64,000 nt of DNA from Paenibacillus sp. FJAT-26967 (lineage in GTDB: Bacteria; Bacillota; Bacilli; Paenibacillales; NBRC-103111): NCBI RefSeq assembly GCF_001541095.1, contig NZ_LMXH01000003.1, forward strand, positions 62,001 through 126,000. Reading direction: 5' to 3'. The number at the start of each line of letters is the position of its first letter. Positions within the stretch are counted from its first letter, which is position 1. Positions 8,274 to 63,434 of the stretch are shown in pieces. The notes beneath the pieces are model-generated. The model was not told the DNA's origin, did not search any database, and worked only from the letters and a program-made list of their open reading frames with translations. The position numbers and the translations under genes are program-made.

Positions 8274-8337
8274 GTCCAGAATCAGGCCCCCCGTCTGATG
8301 AACAATCAAGCATAGGAATAAAGGAGCTTACGTAATT

Positions 8338-9228
8338 ATGGTTGATATAAAAGCATCCGGCGCGTCCGGTAATCATAACCGAGGCAGAATGCTGATTTCC
8401 TGCCCGGACCGGCCGGGAATTGTCGCGGCGGTATCCAAATTTCTGTCCGGGTATGGCGCTAATATCGTGCAATCGGACCAGTACACAATGGACCCGGAAG
8501 GCGGGATGTTTTTTATCCGCATCGCGTTCGATTTAACGGACCTGGAGAATCGCCAGGAGAAGCTGCAGCAGGATTTTGCAGAAGTCGCGGCTGAATTCTC
8601 CATGGAGTGGAGCCTGTCGCTGGCCAGCCGCAGAAAACGCCTCGCCATCTTCGTATCCAAGGAAGATCACTGCCTGCTGGAGCTGCTCTGGCACTGGCGC
8701 GCCGGCGACCTGGATGCGGATATTGCCATGGTCATCAGCAATCACCCGGATATGGAGTCGCTCGTAGAATCCTTCGGCATTCCGTATTATCATATACCGG
8801 TAACCGCGGATACCAAGGCGGAAGTGGAGAAGCGTCACCTGGAGCTGATGAAGGATAAGGTGGACCTCGTTATTCTGGCGAGATACATGCAGATCATACC
8901 TCCGTCCTTTATTGAGCGGTATCATAACCGGATTATTAATATCCATCATTCTTTCTTGCCTGCTTTCGTGGGCGCCAAACCTTATGCCCAGGCGCAAAAC
9001 CGCGGCGTGAAGCTCATTGGAGCGACGGCTCATTACGTAACGGAAGAGCTGGATGGCGGTCCTATCATCGAGCAGGATGTTCAGCGCGTGAGTCATCGCG
9101 ATAATGTCGATGATCTCAAACGCATTGGCCGTCATATTGAGCGTACGGTGCTGGCGCGTGCGGTTTCCCTGCATACCGAAGACCGTATTCTCGTTCATCA
9201 GAACAAGACCGTCGTTTTCAGCAAATAA
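8338..9228 (+). CDS. purU: Formyltetrahydrofolate deformylase
   Basis: Hydrolyses 10-formyl-THF to formate and THF, balancing the one-carbon pool. 296 residues: an N-terminal ACT domain (residues 15-90, MLISCPDRPGIVAAVSKFL) and a C-terminal formyltransferase-like domain. Catalytic residues are visible as Asn-His-Asp in RIINIHHSFLPAF, with LDGGPIIEQD downstream. An AAGGAG ribosome binding site sits upstream with slightly long spacing. A terminator follows, so it appears to be the end of a short transcript after nfo; the two are not functionally linked. Confidence 0.94.
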   Translation: MVDIKASGASGNHNRGRMLISCPDRPGIVAAVSKFLSGYGANIVQSDQYTMDPEGGMFFIRIAFDLTDLENRQEKLQQDFAEVAAEFSMEWSLSLASRRKRLAIFVSKEDHCLLELLWHWRAGDLDADIAMVISNHPDMESLVESFGIPYYHIPVTADTKAEVEKRHLELMKDKVDLVILARYMQIIPPSFIERYHNRIINIHHSFLPAFVGAKPYAQAQNRGVKLIGATAHYVTEELDGGPIIEQDVQRVSHRDNVDDLKRIGRHIERTVLARAVSLHTEDRILVHQNKTVVFSK

Positions 9229-51880: not shown

Positions 51881-52369
51881 ATGATCACCAAACACACCAT
51901 TTCCATTCTAGTTAACAATCAGCCAGGCGTCCTCCAGCGTGTATCCGGTTTGTTCGGCCGCAGAGGATATAACATTGAAAGCATCACAGTCGGGGAGTCC
52001 GAAGAAATCGGACTTTCCCGGATGGTTATTGTAACCAATGGAGATGACAACACTCTGGAACAAATTTCCAAGCAGTTGTACAAGCTAGTCGATGTCATTA
52101 AAGTCATCGACCTGAGCAAGAACCCGATGGTTGCCCGCGAACTGGCACTCATCAAGGTAAACGCCGAGCCTTCTCAGCGTCCCGAAATTCTGGGAATTGT
52201 GGATACGTTCCGCGCGGCAGTCGTTGACATCGGTCCGAGTTCCCTGATTGTTCAGACAATCGGAGACTCAGACAAGATTGATGCCATGATCGAGCTGCTC
52301 CGTTCCTACGGAATTCGTGAGCTCACCAGAACAGGCGCTACTGCGATGATTCGCGGCGCGATCAAGTAA
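51881..52369 (+). CDS. ilvN: Acetolactate synthase small (regulatory) subunit
   Basis: 162 residues with an N-terminal ACT domain (ISILVNNQPGVLQRVSGLFG, RRGYNIESITVG) that binds valine and a C-terminal activation domain (IVDTFRAAVVDIGPSSLIVQ). The ATG follows the ilvB stop by one base. A long imperfect inverted repeat separates it from ilvC. Confidence 0.96.
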   Translation: MITKHTISILVNNQPGVLQRVSGLFGRRGYNIESITVGESEEIGLSRMVIVTNGDDNTLEQISKQLYKLVDVIKVIDLSKNPMVARELALIKVNAEPSQRPEILGIVDTFRAAVVDIGPSSLIVQTIGDSDKIDAMIELLRSYGIRELTRTGATAMIRGAIK

Positions 52370-53524
<1,155 letters not shown>

Positions 53525-53544
53525 TACAGCTTGATCTAATAAGC

Positions 53545-53584
53545 AGCACCTCACTATGCCCGATGCGGAAGTGAGGTGTTTTCT
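53545..53584 (+). terminator. Terminator after ilvC
   Basis: CACCTCAC pairs perfectly with GTGAGGTG (16-nt loop) then TTTTCTT. Confidence 0.85.
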
Positions 53585-53605
53585 TAACACGAAAGGAGCT
53601 ACATC

Positions 53606-54811
53606 ATGAATTATCGGTTCTCTAAAACATTGGAGGCATTCTCCTCCTCCGCGGTACGTGAAATCCTCAAGCTCACGCAAGGAAGCTCCATCATTTCTTT
53701 CGCGGGCGGACTTCCGGCGGAAGAATTTTTCCCGATCGATGCGGTCAAAGAAGCATTGGGCCGTGTCATGGAGGGAGGCACGTCTGCTATGCAGTACGGG
53801 CTGACGGAAGGATACATCCCGCTGCGTCAGAGTATTTGCAAACGGATGGCGGCCAAGGGCATGAACGTAACTCCAGACGACATGATGCTGACGACGGGCT
53901 CCCAGCAGACCATTGATCTGCTGACCCGCATTTATGTGGATGAGGGCGATGTCATTCTTGTGGAGCGTCCTACTTATCTGGCTGCCATTCAGGTATTCCA
54001 GGCGCGCGGCGCGCGAATCGTTTCGGTCCAGAGTGACCGTCACGGTATGGACTTGGACGATCTGGCTGCTCAAATCAGACAGTATAAACCCAAAATGGTC
54101 TACGTAAATCCAAACTTCTCCAACCCGGCAGGCCGTGTATGGAGCCTGGAACGCCGCAAGGGGCTTCTGGAAGCATGCCGCAGCAACGATGTGCTGATCT
54201 TGGAAGACGATCCCTACGGCGAGCTAAGATTCGGTACAACCGAAGTGCTGCCGTCCATTTTCTCCCTGGATCAACACCCGGAAGGAAGCTGCGTGGTCTA
54301 CACGAGCACCTTCTCCAAAATCGTAGCTCCTGCGCTGCGTACAGGATGGGTTATGGGCGATCGCGCAGTTATCCGCGCAATCGCTCAAGCCAAGCAGGCG
54401 GCTGATCTCCAGTCGAGTACACTCGACCAGCAGACGCTTTACCAGCTCATGGAGCACTTTGATATGGATGCGCATATCGAACTGATTTCCACGGAGTACG
54501 AGAAGCGGATGCAGTACATGGTGCAGCTGCTCCGTGAGAAGAACTGGCCCGGCGTGGTCTGGAACGATCCGCAGGGCGGAATGTTCATCTGGCTGGAGCT
54601 CCCGCCGCACATCGACACGCAGGCGCTTCTGCCGACTGCTGTGCAGCATGGGGTCGCTTATGTCCCGGGTGTATCGTTCTATGCGGATCAGCCGCTGCGC
54701 AATACGATGCGCCTGAACTTCACATACTCCAGTCCGGAAGTTCTGAAGCTCGGCATGGAGCGTCTGGATGCCGTTCTGAAGCCGGTGCTTGCCGGAACGC
54801 CAAGTCTTTAA
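53606..54811 (+). CDS. PLP-dependent aminotransferase, class I (2-aminoadipate/MocR-like fold)
   Basis: 401 residues. ITFAGGLPAEEFFP-type start (SIISFAGGLPAEEFFPIDAV), PNFSNPAGRVWSLERR and the PLP lysine in TFSKIVAPALRTGW (Lys238). It resembles the aminotransferase part of MocR regulators and LysN-type enzymes, without the GntR head. Set between ilvC and leuB, it could transaminate branched-chain 2-oxo acids, but these enzymes are broad and terminators on both sides separate its transcript. AAAGGAG precedes the ATG. Confidence 0.88.
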   Translation: MNYRFSKTLEAFSSSAVREILKLTQGSSIISFAGGLPAEEFFPIDAVKEALGRVMEGGTSAMQYGLTEGYIPLRQSICKRMAAKGMNVTPDDMMLTTGSQQTIDLLTRIYVDEGDVILVERPTYLAAIQVFQARGARIVSVQSDRHGMDLDDLAAQIRQYKPKMVYVNPNFSNPAGRVWSLERRKGLLEACRSNDVLILEDDPYGELRFGTTEVLPSIFSLDQHPEGSCVVYTSTFSKIVAPALRTGWVMGDRAVIRAIAQAKQAADLQSSTLDQQTLYQLMEHFDMDAHIELISTEYEKRMQYMVQLLREKNWPGVVWNDPQGGMFIWLELPPHIDTQALLPTAVQHGVAYVPGVSFYADQPLRNTMRLNFTYSSPEVLKLGMERLDAVLKPVLAGTPSL

Positions 54812-54862
54812 TCCTCCCGTATTCAGTATTGCTTAATACTGATACGGAGCCGCAACGAACCG

Positions 54863-54908
54863 GCCTGAAGCCGCTCTTGATACGAGAGAGCGGCTTCAGG
54901 CTTTTTTT
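54863..54908 (+). terminator. Strong terminator after the aminotransferase
   Basis: GCCTGAAGCCGCTCT pairs perfectly with AGAGCGGCTTCAGGC (15 bp, 9-nt loop) then seven T. A smaller hairpin CAGTATT-GCTT-AATACTG (54824-54841) precedes it. Confidence 0.94.
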
Positions 54909-55155
54909 ATAACCAAGGAAAAGGTAGGGGCTTGAAGATGTCAGGAATAATGGCGAGATGACAAGCTGACAGTACAAGATGCAGCAGGAAATAACGTAAA
55001 TATGCTATTCAGGCATGTTATAGGATAAACCTATGAAACTGATAGCTTTTATATCTTAGCCAGGGTTGTCCAGATATGGTACAACAGAAGGTAGAGTAGG
55101 GACCCGGTTAGTAAAGGTCCTGTCAGTTACGGACAATCCAAAGGAGTGAACGAAC
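54909..55155. other. Upstream region of leuB
   Basis: About 250 bp. Two small hairpins are visible: GTTGTCCA-GATA-TGGTACAAC (55065-55085) and AGGGACC/GGTCCT (about 55097-55122). There is no T-box motif. I cannot point to a clear promoter. Confidence 0.45.
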
Positions 55156-56235
55156 ATGTCAGACGTAAAAAAAATCGCCGTTATCGCCGGCGACGGTATC
55201 GGACCGGAAGTAGTTGCGGAAGCGGAGAAAGTTCTTAAAAAGACCGAGGAGCTTTTCGGCCACCGTTTTGAAACGGAGCACGGATTGTTTGGCGGTATCG
55301 CGATCGATGAGAAGGGCACGCCGCTGCCGCAGGAAACGCTGGAAATGTGCCAGCGCGCGGATGCCGTACTGCTCGGAGCGGTTGGCGGTCCCAAGTGGGA
55401 CAACAACTCGAAGGAGCTTCGCCCGGAAACCGGTCTTCTCGGAATCCGCAAAGCGCTCGGCTTGTTCTCGAATATTCGTCCGGCTGTCGTGTTCGACTGT
55501 CTGAAGGATGCATCTACGCTCAAGCCGGAAGTGCTTGACGGAACGGATTTGATCGTGGTCCGTGAGCTGACAGGCGGTATTTATTTCGGCGAGAAATTCC
55601 GCCGCGAGACGGAGAACGGCCAGGAAGCGGTAGATACTTGCGCTTACAACGTAAGCGAAATAGAGCGTATTGCCCGCCAAGCGTTCGAGATCGCACGTAC
55701 GCGCAGCAAGAAGCTGGCGTCGGTAGACAAAGCCAACGTGCTGGAAACCTCCCGTCTGTGGAGAGAAACGGTGATCCGCATCTCGGCCGATTACCCGGAT
55801 GTCGAGCTTGAGCACGTGCTCGTCGACAACTGTGCGATGCAGCTTCTGCGCCGTCCATCAAGCTTCGACGTTATCGTTACCGAGAACATGTTCGGTGATA
55901 TTTTGAGCGACGAAGCAGCGATGCTGACCGGGTCGATCGGGATGCTGTCCTCCGCATCCCTGGGCGAAGGAAGCTTCGGTTTGTACGAGCCCGTACACGG
56001 CTCTGCGCCGGATATCGCGGGTCAAGGCATCTCGAACCCGATTGCCACGATTCTATCCGTCGCGCTGATGTTCCGACTGACATTCGGCTATCACGAAGCG
56101 GCCGATGCGATCGAACGCGCCGTGAAAGAAGTGTTGGATGCCGGACACCGCACAGGCGACATCGCAGTCGACAAGTCCAAAGCGATCGGCACAACGGCTA
56201 TGGGCGACCTGATCGTTGCAGCTATCCGTAAGTAA
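55156..56235 (+). CDS. leuB: 3-isopropylmalate dehydrogenase
   Basis: Third step of leucine synthesis, oxidative decarboxylation with NAD. 359 residues, normal length: [19 protein letters not shown], the substrate arginine region [29 protein letters not shown] and [26 protein letters not shown] precedes the ATG. leuA, leuC and leuD are absent from the window, so the leucine branch is split in this genome, at least here. Confidence 0.97.
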
Positions 56236-56247
56236 GCTCTATTAACA

Positions 56248-56292
56248 GGCGTGCAGAGAGAGACATTTGCTTTCTGCGCGCCTTCTTATTTA
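56248..56292 (+). terminator. Terminator after leuB
   Basis: GGCGTGCAGA pairs with TCTGCGCGCC (10 bp, one G-T, 15-nt loop) then TTCTTATTTAT. Confidence 0.82.
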
Positions 56293-56380
56293 TAGAAGAG
56301 GCTGTTAAAACGGAGCAGACGATGCAGCGGAATATCAGGATGAAACTCCCGATATTAACTTTACATTTAATGGGATGTAT

Positions 56381-56395
56381 TTATAATAATTATCA
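56381..56395. promoter_or_regulatory. Hybrid PerR/Fur box upstream of the peroxiredoxin gene
   Basis: TTATAATAATTATCA: the left half is the exact PerR half-site (TTATAAT) and the right half the exact Fur half-site (ATTATCA); it differs at one base from each 7-1-7 consensus. A nearby TTGACT (56415) with TACCAT 17 bp on, or TATAAT at 56408, could be the promoter. Confidence 0.75.
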
Positions 56396-56484
56396 TCTAG
56401 TATAGCTTATAATATTGACTTTCCTATAAGTGGGTGATACCATCTTACTCGACTAGGAAACATTTGAAGGAGGAATTATTGCAT

Positions 56485-57030
56485 ATGGCAGAACGTTTGG
56501 TAGGCAAACCAGCCCCTGATTTTACTATGGAAACAGCATACGGAGATGGAACGGAATTTGGTACAGCCTCACTTTCCGATTACAAGGGAAAATGGCTTGT
56601 TCTTTTCTTCTATCCGCTTGATTTTACATTTGTATGCCCGACAGAAATTACTGCCCTTAGCGAAGCTTCTTCTGTTTTTAAAGATCTGAAAACAGAAATC
56701 CTCGGTGTATCCGTAGACAGCAAACATTCTCACCGTGCATGGATCAACACTCCGCGTAACGATAACGGTCTGGGCCAACTGAATTTCCCTCTCGCAGCTG
56801 ACCTGACTAAATCCGTATCCCGCGACTATGGTGTTCTGATTGAAGAAGAAGGCGTAGCACTTCGCGGCCTGTTCATTATTGATCCGGAAGGCGAATTGAA
56901 GTACCAGGTTGTTAACCACAACGATGTAGGCCGCAGCGTGGATGAGACTCTTCGCGTGCTGCAAGCACTTCAATCCGGTGGTCTGTGCCCCATGAACTGG
57001 AAACCAGGCGACAAGAATCTGACTGTGTAA
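56485..57030 (+). CDS. 2-Cys peroxiredoxin (AhpC/TSA, YkuU-like)
   Basis: Thiol peroxidase for hydrogen and organic peroxides. 181 residues from ATG at 56485 (GAAGGAGG upstream); the upstream in-frame extension lacks a ribosome binding site. The peroxidatic cysteine is in DFTFVCPTE (Cys51) and the resolving one in GGLCPMNW (Cys168), typical 2-Cys type. No ahpF reductase is adjacent, so thioredoxin is the likely reductant. It is monocistronic and probably peroxide-induced through the upstream box. Confidence 0.94.
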
Positions 57031-57061
57031 TTATTCCGGTTAAGTTTGAACGGATTAGTAC

Positions 57062-57107
57062 AAGCTCCTCATGTTCCGCTTTCGGGCGGAAGCGGGGAGC
57101 TTTTATT
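57062..57107 (+). terminator. Terminator after the peroxiredoxin gene
   Basis: AAGCTCC pairs with GGAGCTT, with an inner TTCCG/CGGAA stem, then TTTTATTT. Confidence 0.87.
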
Positions 57108-57257
57108 TACTCTCCACAGCATTCGTGCCGCCGGTAGTCCGAGTGCTGCGGGAGAATTCCAGGAGACTGCCGAATCGGCTATGCCTCATGCCCAATGCAT
57201 GCCCAAACCGCTGTCGGAGCTGAAGAGGAACATCTGCGAACAAAGGAGGCGGGATGA

Positions 57258-57644
57258 GTGGAGGTCCCCAAAGAATTGCTCTATACCCCAAAACATATGT
57301 GGGTGAGGATTGAAGAGGAACGGGCCGTAATCGGACTAACGGATTATGCCCAGCTAGAGATGGGAATGGTTGTATTCGCGGATTTGCCTCAGGAAGGCGA
57401 TGAGGTCACGGCGGGTGATTATCTAGGCAGTATGGAGACGGTGACGGATGAGTCGGAACTGTTTGCTCCTTTATCCGGCAAAGTGGTATCGGCGAACTGG
57501 CTTCTGAGGAAGGAGCCACATTTTATAAACCGGTTCCCCTATGGTTCCGGCTGGCTGTTTGTGATGGAATACAATAATCCGGAGGAGCTTGAGCTGCTGT
57601 GGACGGCGGAACGCTATGCAGAAATCTATCACGCGCAGGAGTAA
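57258..57644 (+). CDS. GcvH-like protein lacking the lipoyl lysine
   Basis: 128 residues from GTG at 57258 (AAGGAGG 8 bp upstream). The whole sequence aligns with glycine cleavage H protein without gaps around the lipoyl turn: ADLPQEGDEVTAGD, then METVTDESELFAPLSGKVV, and GSGWLFVMEY. At the place of the lipoylated lysine (ESVKA in true GcvH) it has Thr63, so it cannot carry lipoate there. No gcvT, gcvP or lipoate genes are nearby. It may be a scaffold or a regulator; similar degenerate GcvH-like proteins occur in other bacteria. Confidence 0.85.
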   Translation: MEVPKELLYTPKHMWVRIEEERAVIGLTDYAQLEMGMVVFADLPQEGDEVTAGDYLGSMETVTDESELFAPLSGKVVSANWLLRKEPHFINRFPYGSGWLFVMEYNNPEELELLWTAERYAEIYHAQE

Positions 57645-57683
57645 GATCAGGAAATAACGGAAGCGCCCCGAAATGGGGAAGAG

Positions 57684-57722
57684 AAGCGGGAATGGACCCT
57701 GGAGCGGGTCTGTTCCCGCTTT
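57684..57722 (+). terminator. Nested hairpin terminator after the GcvH-like gene
   Basis: AAGCGGGAA pairs with TTCCCGCTT and GACCC with GGGTC inside it, separated by a symmetric TG/TG internal loop. The T-tract is weak (TTTACT). Confidence 0.8.
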
Positions 57723-57760
57723 ACTATTCTGTATGTCTGGATGAGCATCTGCATGTCGTG

Positions 57761-57778
57761 AACAAAATGAACAAAATG
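57761..57778. repeat. Tandem AACAAAATG repeat upstream of tctC
   Basis: Two directly abutting copies of AACAAAATG, about 130 bp before tctC. A plausible binding site for the CitB-type response regulator encoded at 62712. Confidence 0.5.
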
Positions 57779-57858
57779 ATAAAAAGGTATCTTAATCATC
57801 TTATCTCCGTAATCTTGGAACCTGGGAAGCGGGGTGATAAGATGAGAATAATTTTAAA

Positions 57859-57872
57859 AGAAAGCGCTATCA
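57859..57872. promoter_or_regulatory. Catabolite-responsive element (cre) before tctC
   Basis: AGAAAGCGCTATCA matches TGWAANCGNTNWCA in 13 of 14 positions (first base differs). It lies 33 bp ahead of the tctC start, where CcpA binding would block transcription when preferred sugars are present. Confidence 0.65.
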
Positions 57873-57904
57873 ATAAAGAATATTCCATTTCAGGGGGAAA
57901 TTTA

Positions 57905-58945
57905 ATGACAAGAATGATAAAGAAGCACCGGATGTTATCGCTGACTTTGATCGGATTACTGGCTCTAAGTCTGACAGCCTGCGGAAGCGGAGAAAGTAAG
58001 CCGAGCGCAGCCGGGGCAGCCGGCGAATCGAAATACCCTGAAAAGCCTCTAGTCGTAGTAGCTCCTTCGGGAGCAGGGGGTGGCTGGGACAAAACCGCCC
58101 GTTCTGTAGCAAAAGTTCTGGGCGAAGCGAAGTTGGTGGAGCAGCCTATGACGGTGGAGAATAAACCGGGTGGTGGCGGAGTTGTGTTCATGGCTCAGTA
58201 TGCCACACAGGATAAGAAAAATGACTATCGTCTCTTCGTGAATTCACCCCCTATCCTTATTAATAATTTGAAAAAAGAAGGAAACAGCCCGTATGGTTAC
58301 AAAGATACAACGCCGCTGGCCCAATTGACCAAAGATTACGGGGCGCTTGTTGTGCCGGCTGACTCGAAGTACAAGGATCTTAAGTCGGTTCTGGACGCGC
58401 TCAAGGCGAACCCGGATACCGTTATTGTGGCTGGAGGCTCTGCACCGGGTTCAATGGACCATCTAGTAGCGGTGCTTCCCGCTTATAAAGCGGGCATAGA
58501 CCCGAAGAAAGTGAAGTATGTATCCTATGACGGCGGCGGTCAAGCAATGACAGCCTTACTCGGAGGCAATGCGGACGTAATCGCGACGGATGCTTCCAGT
58601 GTAGGCGAATATGTTAAAGCCGGTAAAGTGAAAGTGCTGGCGGTCTCCGCTCCCAAAAGATTGGAAGGCATCCTAAAAGATGTCCCGACGATGAAAGAGC
58701 AGGGACTGGATGCGGAATTTAACATCTGGCGCGGCGTCTTCGGCCCTAAAGAAATGACCGCCGATGCTAAAGCTTACTGGGAGACCAAGCTGAAGGCACT
58801 TCATGAATCCGAGGCTTGGAAAAAGGAGCTTCAGGCTAATTCCTGGGAAGCGGATTATCTGGGCAGCACAGAATTCGCAACCTTCTTGGGAAAGCAGGAA
58901 ACATTGGTTAAGGATATGCTGACGGCGCTGGGCATGGCGAAATAA
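57905..58945 (+). CDS. tctC: Tripartite tricarboxylate transporter substrate-binding lipoprotein
   Basis: 346 residues from ATG at 57905 (AGGGGGA upstream). Signal peptide with lipobox LSLTAC anchors it outside the membrane; the mature part is a Bug/TctC-fold binding protein: VVVAPSGAGGGWDKTARSVA, VENKPGGGGVVFMAQ and the usual DVPTMKEQGLD. It delivers a carboxylate (citrate, other tricarboxylates, or dicarboxylates) to TctAB. First gene of tctC-tctB-tctA, with a cre site upstream. Confidence 0.93.
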   Translation: MTRMIKKHRMLSLTLIGLLALSLTACGSGESKPSAAGAAGESKYPEKPLVVVAPSGAGGGWDKTARSVAKVLGEAKLVEQPMTVENKPGGGGVVFMAQYATQDKKNDYRLFVNSPPILINNLKKEGNSPYGYKDTTPLAQLTKDYGALVVPADSKYKDLKSVLDALKANPDTVIVAGGSAPGSMDHLVAVLPAYKAGIDPKKVKYVSYDGGGQAMTALLGGNADVIATDASSVGEYVKAGKVKVLAVSAPKRLEGILKDVPTMKEQGLDAEFNIWRGVFGPKEMTADAKAYWETKLKALHESEAWKKELQANSWEADYLGSTEFATFLGKQETLVKDMLTALGMAK

Positions 58946-58975
58946 TCAATCTTGGATGAACTGGAGGACAGCGCA

Positions 58976-59434
58976 ATGAACACAACGTTTGACCGTTATG
59001 CCGGCGTTGCCTTCCTGCTGATCGGGGCTGGCTTTGTCTGGCAAAGCACCACGATTATGGACAGTGCCTACGGAAGTAATGTCGGCTCGAATATTTTCCC
59101 GCTCGGACTTGGCATTCTGCTTATGCTGCTCAGTGTCCGCCTGCTTGCAGAAACCTTGCGTTATAAGTCTCAGAGCGGTGAGCGTACCCGGCTGGATTAC
59201 AAACGTTTCGGTATCCTGCTGGGTGCGGCGGTCGCTTACTGCCTGCTGCTTGAACCTCTGGGGTATGTCATCACGACGTTTGGTTTCTTGCTGGTAGGGT
59301 TCCAGACGATGGAACGGGGTAAATGGGTGAAGTCGCTGCTCATTTCCGCAATTTTCTCCGGGGGAGTGTATGTGCTATTCGTGCAAGTACTGAAGGGCTC
59401 GCTTCCTCCCTTCCCGGGTTGGTTAGGTTTGTAG
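58976..59434 (+). CDS. tctB: Tripartite tricarboxylate transporter small membrane subunit
   Basis: 152 residues from ATG at 58976 (TGGAGGA upstream), four transmembrane helices in the TctB pattern: FDRYAGVAFLLIGAGFVWQS, then IFPLGLGILLMLLSVRLLAE and YCLLLEPLGYVITTFGFLLV. It lies between tctC and tctA with short gaps. Confidence 0.92.
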   Translation: MNTTFDRYAGVAFLLIGAGFVWQSTTIMDSAYGSNVGSNIFPLGLGILLMLLSVRLLAETLRYKSQSGERTRLDYKRFGILLGAAVAYCLLLEPLGYVITTFGFLLVGFQTMERGKWVKSLLISAIFSGGVYVLFVQVLKGSLPPFPGWLGL

Positions 59435-59449
59435 GCAGGAGGGACAACC

Positions 59450-60976
59450 ATGGATACACTAACTTATTTGTTTAACGGTTTTGCCGTTGCGCTGCAGTGG
59501 CATAATCTTCTATTCGCCTTCGTTGGTGTGCTGATCGGTACCGCCGTCGGCGTTCTGCCCGGAATCGGCCCTATGAGCGGGGTCGCTCTCCTGATTCCGG
59601 TGACTTCCTCGCTGACAACGGGGCTGTCGCCTGAGGAAGCGGCAATATCGTCTATCATTCTGCTGGCGGGTGTGTATTACGGCGCCATGTATGGCGGGTC
59701 CACCACATCGATTCTGCTTAATACACCCGGGGAGTCATCCTCGGTGGTCACGACGCTCGACGGCTACCAGCTCGCCAAACAGGGACGCGCCGGCTCTGCC
59801 TTGTCGATCGCCGCGATTGGATCTTTTGCAGCCGGTCTAGTGTCTCTGCTGGGACTGATCTTCCTTGCGGGGCCGCTGTCGGAGCTTGCGATTAAATTCG
59901 GTCCGGCTGAGTATTTTTCTCTGATGCTGCTTGGACTTGCAGCGGTTAGCGGCCTGGCCGGCAAATCCATGACCAAAGCGCTCATGATGACGGTCTTCGG
60001 TTTGCTGATTGCAACAATCGGCATAGACAGCGTATCGGGTGTAGCACGGTTTACGTACGATATCCCCGTGTTGTACCAGGGCATCGAATTCTTAACGGTT
60101 GCCGTGGGCCTCTTCGCTCTTGGCGAGGTGTTCAAGACGATTCTGGAGAAAGAATCGAACGAAGGCAGCGTCGTCAAATTCACACGTATTCTGCCGACAC
60201 GCCAGGATCTGAAAGAAAGCGCCGGACCGATTGCTAGGGGGTCATTCCTGGGCTTCTTTATCGGAATTCTGCCTGGTGCAGGCGCCACCCTCGCTTCTTT
60301 CTTTTCCTATATAATGGAGAAGAAAATCAGTAAAAATCCCGAAAAATTCGGCAAAGGCGCAATCGAAGGAGTTGCGGCTCCCGAATCGGCGAATAACGCG
60401 GCTTCCGGGGGAGCGATGATTCCTCTGCTTACGCTCGGTATACCGGGGTCGGGCACAACCGCGATTCTGATGGGCGCGCTCATCATGTACAACATTCAGC
60501 CGGGTCCGCTGCTGTTCGAGGAACATCCGCAGGTTGCGTGGGGGCTTATTGCCAGTATGTTTATCGGAAATCTGATGCTGCTGATTCTGAATATGCCGCT
60601 TGTCAAAGTATTCGCGAAGATCATTGAGACCCCGCCCAAATATTTAATTCCGATTATCATGGCGATTTCGGTATTCGGCGTGTACGCGGTTCAGGTGACT
60701 GTTTTTGATCTGATGCTGCTGCTGGGGTGCGGTGTTGCCGGCTACTTCCTGGCCAAGAACGATTTTCCGCTTGCGCCGCTCGTATTAGGTCTTGTTCTGG
60801 GACCGATGATCGAAAACAACATGCGCAGAGCCTTGACAGGTTCGAACGGGGATTTTATGATCTTCTTACACAAGCCTCTGTCCGCTGTGTTTCTGATCGC
60901 TGCCATTCTATGGTTGCTCGTTCCTTTTATTTTAAAAAAGCGCGGGAAGCGAGTTCTTGTCAACGAAGAAAGCTAG
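59450..60976 (+). CDS. tctA: Tripartite tricarboxylate transporter large permease
   Basis: 508 residues with about 11-12 transmembrane helices. TctA signatures are GVLPGIGPMSGVALLIPVTS, YYGAMYGGSTTSILLNTPGE and the second repeat FIGILPGAGATLASFFSY with PESANNAASGGAMIPLLTLG. It is the ion-driven transport channel of the system. GGAGGG precedes the ATG. A terminator follows before the sensor kinase gene. Confidence 0.95.
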   Translation: MDTLTYLFNGFAVALQWHNLLFAFVGVLIGTAVGVLPGIGPMSGVALLIPVTSSLTTGLSPEEAAISSIILLAGVYYGAMYGGSTTSILLNTPGESSSVVTTLDGYQLAKQGRAGSALSIAAIGSFAAGLVSLLGLIFLAGPLSELAIKFGPAEYFSLMLLGLAAVSGLAGKSMTKALMMTVFGLLIATIGIDSVSGVARFTYDIPVLYQGIEFLTVAVGLFALGEVFKTILEKESNEGSVVKFTRILPTRQDLKESAGPIARGSFLGFFIGILPGAGATLASFFSYIMEKKISKNPEKFGKGAIEGVAAPESANNAASGGAMIPLLTLGIPGSGTTAILMGALIMYNIQPGPLLFEEHPQVAWGLIASMFIGNLMLLILNMPLVKVFAKIIETPPKYLIPIIMAISVFGVYAVQVTVFDLMLLLGCGVAGYFLAKNDFPLAPLVLGLVLGPMIENNMRRALTGSNGDFMIFLHKPLSAVFLIAAILWLLVPFILKKRGKRVLVNEES

Positions 60977-61029
60977 TCCAGCACTCTTCCTGCAATCTGA
61001 CGGGATTGGGGTAATGCTGAAGAAATCCG

Positions 61030-61070
61030 AGTACCCGTCCCGACCATCACGGGCGGGTACTTTCGCTTTT
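61030..61070 (+). terminator. Terminator between tctA and the sensor kinase
   Basis: AGTACCCG-T-CCCG pairs with CGGG-CGGGTACT (12 bp with one bulge), then TTTCGCTTTT. Confidence 0.8.
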
Positions 61071-61092
61071 GAACGGAAGAAGGAGGCCGCCG

Positions 61093-62715
61093 ATGCGTCT
61101 GCAAACCAAAATGATCTTAATCATCTGTACGCTTCTGCTTGGACTAGTGGTTGTGCTGGGAGCTTTTTTTGAATACATCCTGCAGACAGGCATCGAAGAG
61201 CAAATCGGCACACGCGCGCTAAAAGTAGCAGAGATGGCGGCAATGAACACGGAGATCTTGGAGGCTATGGATGATACGCTGCCATCGACCGTCATTCAGC
61301 CCATTGCAGAAGGGATCCGACTAAAGACAGGCGCAGAGTATGTCGTCGTGGGAAATGCGGAAGGAATCCGTCATTCGCATCCGCTGCCGGACCGAATAGG
61401 CAAACCTATGATCGGCGGCGATAATGACCGGGTATTTGCCGGTCATCCGGTCATTTCCAAGGCGGTAGGTTCTATGGGGATGGCAATCCGAGGCAAGGCT
61501 CCTTTACTTGATGATGCCGGAAAAGTGGTTGGCGTCGTATCGGTCGGGTTTCTAATGGAGGACGTAGAGAGTGTGGTCGACTCCTACAGCCGTAAAGTCG
61601 TCATGGCTGCTGCTGCTGCACTGGCACTCGGTAGTCTGGGGGCGATTTATATAGCACGCCGGGTAAAAAAGGAAACACTGGGGCTGGAGCCGGAAGAGAT
61701 CGGAGCGCTCTATCTGGAAAAAGAAGCGATTCTGGAGTCGATACGTGAAGGTGTTATTGCGGTGAATGCCCGAAGTGTGATTACCATGGTCAATCAGGCG
61801 GCTGTCAAGATGATTGGCGGAGGAGATCCGTCTCAGCTTCTTGGCAAGCCGCTTCAAGATATTTTTCCTGCTTCAAGGCTGGGGGAGGTTCTGCAAACCG
61901 GTAAAGCTGAATTCGATCAGCAGATGATTATTGGCGAGCATGAAGCAGTGGAAAACCGTATTCCTATCTTTGGATCCAATGGGATCCCGATTGGGGCGGT
62001 TTCCAGCTTCCGCAGTAAGTCGGAACTGTTCCGGCTTGCCGACGAGCTGTCTCAGGTCAAACGCTACGCGGAGGCACTGCGGGCTCAGACTCATGAATTC
62101 TCAAACAAACTGTATGTGATTTCGGGATTGATCCAGCTTGAATCCTACCAGGAAGCGATTGATATGATCAGCCGGGAATCAAACGTGCATCAGAGTCTGA
62201 TCCAGTTTATTATGCGGGAGGTACCCGATCCGATTATTGGAGGTCTGCTGATCGGGAAGTTTAACCGGGCTCATGAACTGAAGGTGGATCTTCAAATCGA
62301 CGAAGAAAGCAGTCTCAAAGATATTCCTAAGCAAATGGACCGTAACCATCTGATTACGATTCTGGGCAATCTGCTGGATAACGCAATGGAGGCGACGCTG
62401 ACCGCTAAAGGGGACAGAGCAAGAAGCGTCGGACTGTTTATGACAGACCTCGGGGAAGATTTGATTATCGAATGTGAGGATAACGGACCGGGTATTATGA
62501 AAGACCAGGGACACCGGATCTTTGAGAACGGATTCACTACAAAAGAAGGACAAAGCCGGGGAATCGGGCTCGCACTTGTCCGCCATGCGGTTAACCAGCT
62601 CGGAGGATTTATTACGTACCGGAGTGAGGCTGGGGAAGGAACGCTATTTACGGTTATTCTTCCCAAACATCAATACAAGCCGTTCATAACCGGGGACAAG
62701 GGGGATTCCGTGTGA
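61093..62715 (+). CDS. citA: CitA/DcuS-family sensor histidine kinase
   Basis: 540 residues from ATG at 61093 (AAGGAGG upstream). Two transmembrane helices (about 8-28 and 170-190) flank an extracytoplasmic PAS-like (sCache) domain containing EGIRHSHPLPDRIGKPMIGG, the carboxylate-sensing pattern of CitA/DcuS. A cytosolic PAS, then the phospho-His334 in RAQTHEFSNKLYVISGL and an HATPase domain (DNAMEAT, GIGLALVRHAV). It probably senses citrate or a related acid and controls tctCBA next door. Confidence 0.92.
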   Translation: MRLQTKMILIICTLLLGLVVVLGAFFEYILQTGIEEQIGTRALKVAEMAAMNTEILEAMDDTLPSTVIQPIAEGIRLKTGAEYVVVGNAEGIRHSHPLPDRIGKPMIGGDNDRVFAGHPVISKAVGSMGMAIRGKAPLLDDAGKVVGVVSVGFLMEDVESVVDSYSRKVVMAAAAALALGSLGAIYIARRVKKETLGLEPEEIGALYLEKEAILESIREGVIAVNARSVITMVNQAAVKMIGGGDPSQLLGKPLQDIFPASRLGEVLQTGKAEFDQQMIIGEHEAVENRIPIFGSNGIPIGAVSSFRSKSELFRLADELSQVKRYAEALRAQTHEFSNKLYVISGLIQLESYQEAIDMISRESNVHQSLIQFIMREVPDPIIGGLLIGKFNRAHELKVDLQIDEESSLKDIPKQMDRNHLITILGNLLDNAMEATLTAKGDRARSVGLFMTDLGEDLIIECEDNGPGIMKDQGHRIFENGFTTKEGQSRGIGLALVRHAVNQLGGFITYRSEAGEGTLFTVILPKHQYKPFITGDKGDSV

Positions 62716-63434
62716 TTGAGGGAAGCAGAGATAAAGTTCGTGTGATGATTATCGAGGATGACCTGCGGATCGCCGAAATCAACCGGCGGTTTCTGAGTAA
62801 GATCATAGGATTCGAGGTGTGCGGCATTGCCACTGATATCCAGCAGGCGAAGGAACAGCTGGAAATTCTGGAGCCGGAATTGGCACTGCTCGATGTTTAT
62901 TTCCCGGATTCCAGCGGGCTGGAGCTGCTTAAGTATATGAAGCAGCACCATCCGCATACCGATGTCATTATGATTACGGCGGCTAAAGAAGTGGATGCCG
63001 TGCGGCGCGCCATCCGTGGCGGAGCATTCGATTTTATTATTAAGCCCCTCGTGTTCGAACGTCTTCGTGAATCCTTGGAGAAGTACAGCGAATACCGGAG
63101 CCGGCTCGAGCGGCTGCAGGCTGAGAACGGACATCTTTCTCAAGAACAGATCGACCTGCTCATGGTGGGAATGGACAACCGGGATTACGCAGGCGGCAGT
63201 TACCTTCCCAAGGGCATAGATAAGCTCACGCTGGATAAGGTAAGCGCGGCAATTTCCGGCGAGCTGCATGGCATGACAGCCGATCAGGCAGCCAAAGTGA
63301 TCGGCGTCAGCCGGACAACGGCGCGCCGATACCTGGAGCATCTCGTATCCGCAGGCAGCCTTGCCGCTGATTTGTCGTACGGGCTCGTAGGCCGGCCGGA
63401 ACGCGTATATAAAGCAGTACGGAGCCGGAATTGA
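62712..63434 (+). CDS. citB: CitB/DcuR-family response regulator
   Basis: 240 residues. GTG at 62712 overlaps the kinase stop (GTGA); an ATG at 62745 is an alternative. Receiver domain with IIEDDLRIAEINRRFL and phospho-Asp61 (LALLDVYFPDSSGLELL), Lys in DFIIKPLVFERL, then a linker and a C-terminal helix-turn-helix (TADQAAKVIGVSRTTARRYL). Expected to activate the transporter operon when the kinase detects substrate. Confidence 0.93.
   Translation: MIEGSRDKVRVMIIEDDLRIAEINRRFLSKIIGFEVCGIATDIQQAKEQLEILEPELALLDVYFPDSSGLELLKYMKQHHPHTDVIMITAAKEVDAVRRAIRGGAFDFIIKPLVFERLRESLEKYSEYRSRLERLQAENGHLSQEQIDLLMVGMDNRDYAGGSYLPKGIDKLTLDKVSAAISGELHGMTADQAAKVIGVSRTTARRYLEHLVSAGSLAADLSYGLVGRPERVYKAVRSRN

Follow-up and report, generated by a model that had tools for sequence, protein, structure and literature searches.

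A GcvH-like protein without the lipoyl lysine is conserved in dozens of Paenibacillus-like species and probably has another job

What defines a swinging-arm carrier protein is the lysine to which the arm is attached. Homologues of one such carrier, GcvH, are known from several settings other than glycine cleavage. Chlamydiae encode a GcvH homologue, not_gcvH, in genomes that lack the P and T proteins. In Bacillus subtilis, GcvH takes part in a lipoyl relay as a substrate of LipM and a donor for LipL, according to excerpts of two papers (PMC6067878 and PMC10332631). GcvH-L, a GcvH paralogue of Bacillota encoded in SirTM/macrodomain operons of Staphylococcus aureus and Streptococcus pyogenes, is both lipoylated and ADP-ribosylated, and an excerpt of PMC5049849 proposes a redox link for it. 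LbpA, of the Hdr-like sulfur-oxidizing system, is a GcvH homologue that works outside glycine cleavage; it keeps the lysine and, except in some archaea, also has two cysteines (PMC6067878, in excerpt). A search of the open-licence literature by title and start of abstract found no paper on a GcvH that lacks the lysine.

Here we describe such a protein, encoded in a window of 64,000 nucleotides from Paenibacillus sp. FJAT-26967 (contig NZ_LMXH01000003.1, positions 62,001 to 126,000). The gene, gcvH2 (window positions 57258 to 57644, forward strand), encodes 128 amino acids from a GTG start. A ribosome-binding-site-like AGGAGG, read from the sequence, lies 8 nt upstream of the start (57244 to 57249, forward strand), and a terminator-like hairpin lies 3′ of the gene (57683 to 57722, forward strand). 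The Pfam GCV_H profile (PF01597) covered the protein over positions 1 to 119 of 122 with 112.2 bits (cut-off, 22.2). Gapless phmmer alignments to the H-proteins of Thermotoga maritima and Thermus thermophilus ran through the lipoyl turn; both of these have Lys at position 63, where the turn of the window protein, METVTDESE, has Thr63 (ACG, 57444 to 57446, forward strand). An AF2 model made from a 58-row alignment had a pLDDT of 91.5 (91 over residues 61 to 70), and its closest PDB folds were H-proteins (1onl, TM 0.94; 3a7l, TM 0.95), with H-proteins complexed with LplA (3a7a) and human LIAS (8ugo) also among the matches. Both sequence and predicted fold thus place the window protein in the GcvH family, as the initial annotation had claimed for a GcvH-like protein with Thr63 and a well-kept fold, and the feature that defines GcvH, the lipoyl lysine, is absent from it. 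A sequencing error at 57444 is very unlikely, since the same ACG codon was found in four further sequenced genomes, those of P. lutrae (98%) and of P. chitinolyticus, P. sp. UNC499MF and P. sp. HGH0039 (62 to 63%). These four relatives and the window protein were the only Lys-less members of the 58-row alignment; the remaining 76 loci of the same scan all had Lys.

The window protein resembles GcvH over its whole length and in predicted fold, and it retains residues around the lipoyl turn, Glu60 at −3 (57435 to 57437, forward strand) and Gly74 at +11 (57477 to 57479, forward strand), each found in all 38 Lys-less proteins described below. It differs in lacking the lysine, in belonging to a genus where gcvT was not found, and in coexisting with a separate Lys-bearing GcvH. 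The relay GcvH of B. subtilis is a fitting comparison for Lys-bearing orthologues: in five genomes (G004, G067, G073, G079 and G099), such an orthologue is the sole GcvH match and gcvT was not found, consistent with a relay role. The window protein, unlike these, lacks the canonical octanoyl-accepting residue, so octanoyl acceptance by it is not expected. GcvH-L is likewise a Bacillota GcvH paralogue but carries the modified lysine, and its operon includes macrodomain, sirtuin and lplA2 genes, whereas the ten proteins encoded around gcvH2 (51881 to 63431) belong to other families, with no sirtuin, macrodomain or Hdr-like protein among them. LbpA also works outside glycine cleavage, but the window protein has neither its lysine nor its cysteines; the window protein and 32 of the 38 Lys-less proteins are Cys-free. 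The chlamydial not_gcvH model (TIGR03077) gave 48.7 bits, far below its cut-off of 144.05. By these comparisons, the window protein is not GcvH-L, LbpA or chlamydial not_gcvH. With 118.3 against a cut-off of 115.85, it does just pass the NCBI gcvH equivalog TIGR00527, an annotation trap in a genus without detectable gcvT. One Lys-less protein of genus g17 (99.5) and a short one (80.1) missed that cut-off.

Judged by sequence and synteny, the window gene is orthologous to the gcvH gene of a leuB-prx-gcvH arrangement, here called GcvH2, which bears the lysine in other families of the order. All 104 genomes of the family had a GcvH match. Among the 99 that were read (that is, all but G016, G026, G027, G080 and G089), GcvH2 was Lys-less in 38 and Lys-bearing in 52, the latter recognized from leuB/prx synteny or else from similarity and their place in the tree, and in 9 only the other paralogue, GcvH1, was read. 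The Lys-less proteins come from four genera: g1, the window's genus (5), g11 (2), g12 (1) and g17 (30). They were found in all five genomes of g1 (the P. chitinolyticus/lutrae group), always with Thr, and in all 30 of g17. Fixation of Thr63, raised in the initial annotation, therefore holds within the genus only; across the 38 proteins, residue 63 is Asp (15), Glu (12), Thr (6), Val (3), Ala (1) or Gln (1). Outside the family, where the order-wide comparison rests on 18 genomes read, a Lys-bearing GcvH2 with adjoining leuB, prx or both was found in the fetched stretches of 13 genomes from families f3 to f7, f9 and f11, and prx was present in 10 of these stretches (f4, f6, f7, f9 and f11). Because the Lys-bearing GcvH2 lies beside leuB or prx across families, leuB-prx-gcvH with the lysine looks ancestral and its loss derived. 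Lys-bearing orthologues had been named earlier as a finding that would speak against a real change at this site; other genera and families have them, but here they indicate that the lysine was ancestral and then lost.

The number of losses was assessed on a tree of 91 rows and 119 columns from which the lipoyl-loop columns were left out. Duplicate loci, six near-identical Lys-bearing rows, L105 (a truncated Lys-bearing row) and L113 (a short Lys-less row) were left out of the tree and of the column counts, and the seven short Lys-less rows entered the 38-protein counts and not the tree. All 31 full-length Lys-less proteins fell within one 32-row clade (support, 99/83) that also contains the Lys-bearing GcvH2 of G087, in genus g19, which is counted among the 52. 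The fewest changes on this tree, which has many open forks and long branches, were two, and a tree holding the 31 Lys-less proteins as one clade was not rejected (p-AU 0.308). A single loss is thus compatible with the tree, not proved by it, the columns being few and the branches long. The tree program flagged the joining of L071 with g17 as possibly false. The G087 protein (L053, about 8315 to 8704) keeps its Lys in a divergent turn, ESAKQDMD, and is possibly an intermediate or a regain.

Selection on GcvH2 was estimated by dN/dS (Nei-Gojobori), which was 0.055 to 0.25 in ten pairs within the window's genus and 0.056 to 0.27 in eleven chosen g17 pairs; the genus has two subclades between which dS is saturated, so ratios across them are rough. 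For comparison, within the genus dN/dS was at most 0.15 for GcvH1, 0.05 for the peroxiredoxin Prx and 0.03 for LeuB. Relative to Prx, the slope of divergence was 7.8 for Lys-less and 2.3 for Lys-bearing GcvH2, about 3 times faster, in a comparison of non-independent pairs over Prx distances of 0.02 to 0.25. Lys-less GcvH2 is thus under purifying selection, yet evolves faster than Lys-bearing GcvH2. The reading frame is open in all 31 full-length Lys-less copies, including the five of the window's genus. Together with the low dN/dS in the pairs compared, this rules out a pseudogene. In seven of the 30 g17 genomes (L222 to L228), the Lys-less GcvH2 is about 20 residues short at the end and still lies 3′ of prx; one of these (G044) has a TAG inside the profile match.

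Residue changes were compared between 31 Lys-less and 44 Lys-bearing rows, with L053 left out of the latter. Apart from Lys63, positions no longer fixed in the Lys-less rows were Phe30, Gln32, Gly47, Pro87 and Asn91. Val65, invariant in all 44 Lys-bearing rows, is replaced by Glu, found in 36 of the 38 Lys-less proteins (window Glu65, 57450 to 57452, forward strand), and residue 67 is Asp or Glu in all 38. Conservation rose at R17, A23, P4, M37, L72 and E110, gains that relatedness inflates because g17 contributes 23 of the 31 rows. None of the 38 proteins has a lysine at residues 57 to 74, which rules out a lipoyl lysine shifted by a few residues. That E65 has become common points to a change of role and not to decay; the seven shortened g17 copies point to decay, or to a role for which the core is enough. 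Together, these results establish that a carrier protein has lost its cofactor site, a loss that is real, selected and common to four genera, and they suggest that the Lys-less GcvH2 of dozens of Paenibacillus-like species probably has another job.

The window's genome, on another contig, encodes a second GcvH, GcvH1, with the Lys-bearing turn ESVKTVSD, so the separate canonical gcvH for which the initial annotation had advised a search is present. An ESVKTVSD-type GcvH1 was present in all 38 Lys-less genomes. Of the 52 genomes with a Lys-bearing GcvH2, for their part, 20 have no other GcvH match, and two of these 20 (G005 and G007) are about 70% complete. A search of 28 genomes for gcvT, one of the glycine cleavage genes, found none in 11, including G019 and all five of the window's genus; among Lys-less genomes, gcvT was detected in 10 of 16 searched. 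The remark that the gene stands away from gcvT and gcvP was thus correct and understated. Each genome of the genus has a single relative of the GDC-P family, scoring 211 to 218 bits, compared with 466 to 484 bits for the large gcvP-type match elsewhere. One such relative lies at G000:C6:43886-45199; the family is represented in all five genomes though gcvT was not found there, and similar second GDC-P copies occur in G021, G033, G051 and G052. All 16 genomes searched for LipA had a match above the cut-off, and three or four proteins of the BPL/LplA/LipB family were found in each of 28 genomes. The four in the window's genome are a BirA, a lipoate-protein ligase that exceeded its cut-off, a third protein whose best models are LipL-type GcvH-dependent transferases, below the cut-offs, and a fourth with weak LplA-type matches only; no LipM-type protein in this genome reached a specific model. 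By gene content, this genus has lipoate assembly but no glycine cleavage system that could be detected, and the simplest role for GcvH1 there would therefore be that of the relay GcvH.

We propose that GcvH2, encoded at leuB-prx-gcvH, was the ancestral lipoyl carrier of the order. The ancestor of the four genera would also have owned a canonical GcvH1 that took over the lipoyl work, after which GcvH2 would have lost its lysine and been retained as a non-lipoylated pseudo-carrier. By known chemistry, such a protein would be unable to carry a lipoyl or aminomethyl group and, lacking Cys in the window, has no thiol for carriage either, which leaves binding to other proteins as its presumed role. 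Since the carrier shape is kept and GcvH1 is always present in the genomes read, Lys-less GcvH2 may be a look-alike that binds the partners of the carrier. It could dock on the lipoyl relay (LipM, LipL, LplJ or LipA) as an unmodifiable imitation of GcvH1 and so adjust lipoyl transfer; read-through from the peroxiredoxin gene would supply it at low levels. That GcvH2 is a functional non-lipoylated pseudo-carrier seems to us likely. The lipoyl relay would be our first choice of partner, with Prx second, and that choice is tentative and rather on the unlikely side. The whole sequence of events, from displaced carrier to pseudo-carrier on the relay, is a serious possibility that falls somewhat short of an even chance. 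Some observations point the other way. E60 and G74 may be kept for the fold alone; an acceptor mimic would be expected to preserve the acceptor loop, and the tip varies, with one extra turn residue in nine g17 rows and Val65 turned to Glu; and the faster divergence, the seven short g17 copies and the Lys-bearing G087 protein inside the clade all weigh against the proposal. A new function, suggested by the initial annotation, thus remains inferential: selection and fold favor it, and rapid divergence and shortening do not. A carrier lineage that lost its lysine, perhaps once, with the fold selected across four genera beside a working copy, would be a pseudo-carrier that arose in nature, standing to carriers as a pseudoenzyme stands to enzymes, and Lys-less GcvH2 makes a lipoyl-independent function of H-protein testable.

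The gene order around gcvH2 suggests Prx as another candidate partner. In the window, a leuB-type gene of the isocitrate/isopropylmalate dehydrogenase family (55156 to 56235, forward strand; PF00180, 470.6 bits) and prx, for an AhpC/TSA-family peroxiredoxin (56485 to 57030, forward strand; PF00578, 140 bits), precede gcvH2, both conserved in synteny. On the same strand, prx lies 5′ of gcvH2 at all 38 Lys-less loci, with the gcvH2 start no more than 300 bp away in 37, and 5′ of the Lys-bearing gene at 35 of 45 loci examined, some of the other ten being short stretches or ending at a contig end. A terminator-like hairpin with a T-rich tail follows prx in the window (57074 to 57097, forward strand). 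Every one of the 38 Lys-less loci has such a hairpin and T-run no more than 90 nt beyond the prx stop, against 5.5 expected from dinucleotide shuffles; among the Lys-bearing loci, 30 of 35 have them (5.3 expected). Because the T-run ends a median of 21 nt from the gcvH2 start in the Lys-less set, most g17 genomes leave little room for a promoter, which suggests that gcvH2 is expressed by read-through of the putative terminator from prx. The gap in the window itself is 149 nt, where a separate promoter is possible; a consensus scan of this gap, which is weak evidence, found no promoter-like site. In five g17 genomes (L052, L080, L087, L089 and L098), the inner part of the hairpin is nearly constant, GGCATGCGAATGC.

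According to one alternative, GcvH2 already had a lipoyl-independent role with Prx, in binding, assembly or protection, while it still bore the lysine, and this role alone remains. The linkage just described, together with prx in 10 of the 13 stretches from other families, agrees with this, as do the retention of GcvH2 beside GcvH1, which suggests a second function, and the redox role hypothesized for the paralogue GcvH-L of S. aureus in PMC5049849. The linkage, however, is older than the loss and may be inert synteny, it is absent from 10 of 45 Lys-bearing loci, and a search for coevolved change in Prx found a single column, residue 181, that separates the Lys-less from the Lys-bearing set. 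The window protein is Cys-free, as are most of the Lys-less proteins, which rules out a thiol relay to the peroxiredoxin. We consider an accessory role with Prx unlikely. Less probable again is a combination of both ideas, a non-lipoylated regulator made by read-through from prx that would bind lipoylation enzymes, or Prx, through the acidic turn that took the place of the lipoyl-lysine loop and couple peroxide defense to lipoate metabolism in Paenibacillus-like bacteria.

Slow decay is another explanation of these proteins: GcvH2 would have become nearly dispensable once GcvH1 took over and would still fold because its loss is incomplete. The rapid divergence, the shortened g17 copies and the TAG in G044 fit such a course. 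So does family f10, whose genomes mostly have one GcvH match and where the five genomes read have a Lys-bearing GcvH1-like protein with neither leuB nor prx in the stretch. Against it stand the low dN/dS in the pairs compared, the open frames of the full-length copies, the presence of the gene in every genome of g17 and of the window's genus, and the newly conserved E65, R17, A23 and M37, subject to the inflation by relatedness given above. The initial annotation had argued from the well-kept fold that this is not simple decay; we regard decay as improbable, at a level with the combined reading.

The acidic turn could also serve another chemistry by binding a metal or by being itself modified instead of a lipoyl-lysine. 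E60, E65 and the acidic residue 67 are present in all or nearly all of the 38 proteins, and many g17 proteins read EHDL, with His66, in the turn; residue 66 is, however, Ser, Thr or Ala in the window's genus, and we think this very unlikely. It is extremely unlikely that GcvH2 acts as a non-lipoylated H-protein that modulates glycine cleavage by binding GcvP or GcvT, a role that its predicted fold and the gcvT of other Lys-less genomes would allow, since gcvT was not found in G019 or the five genomes of the window's genus, which all keep gcvH2, and that genus has only the low-scoring GDC-P relative; its gene content contradicts a glycine cleavage role there.

The initial annotation had placed gcvH2 between a peroxiredoxin gene and a citrate-type transporter operon. 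This is correct for the window, and of the two neighbors, prx is conserved and the transporter is not. Genes for TctC, TctB and TctA, a Cache-type sensor kinase and a DpiA-like response regulator (57905 to 63434) lie between gcvH2 and a convergent gene. These genes were not at the gcvH2 locus of the four congeners, so that TctC, TctB and TctA adjoin gcvH2 in one of five genomes of the genus, which rules out a link to the transporter. In the congeners, a convergent gene for a glycosyl hydrolase 15 protein lies 3′ of gcvH2. The next long gene is convergent in these four and at L051 to L053, which speaks against a further operon partner downstream, and from its gene order the Tct block looks like a strain-specific insertion in the window's genome.
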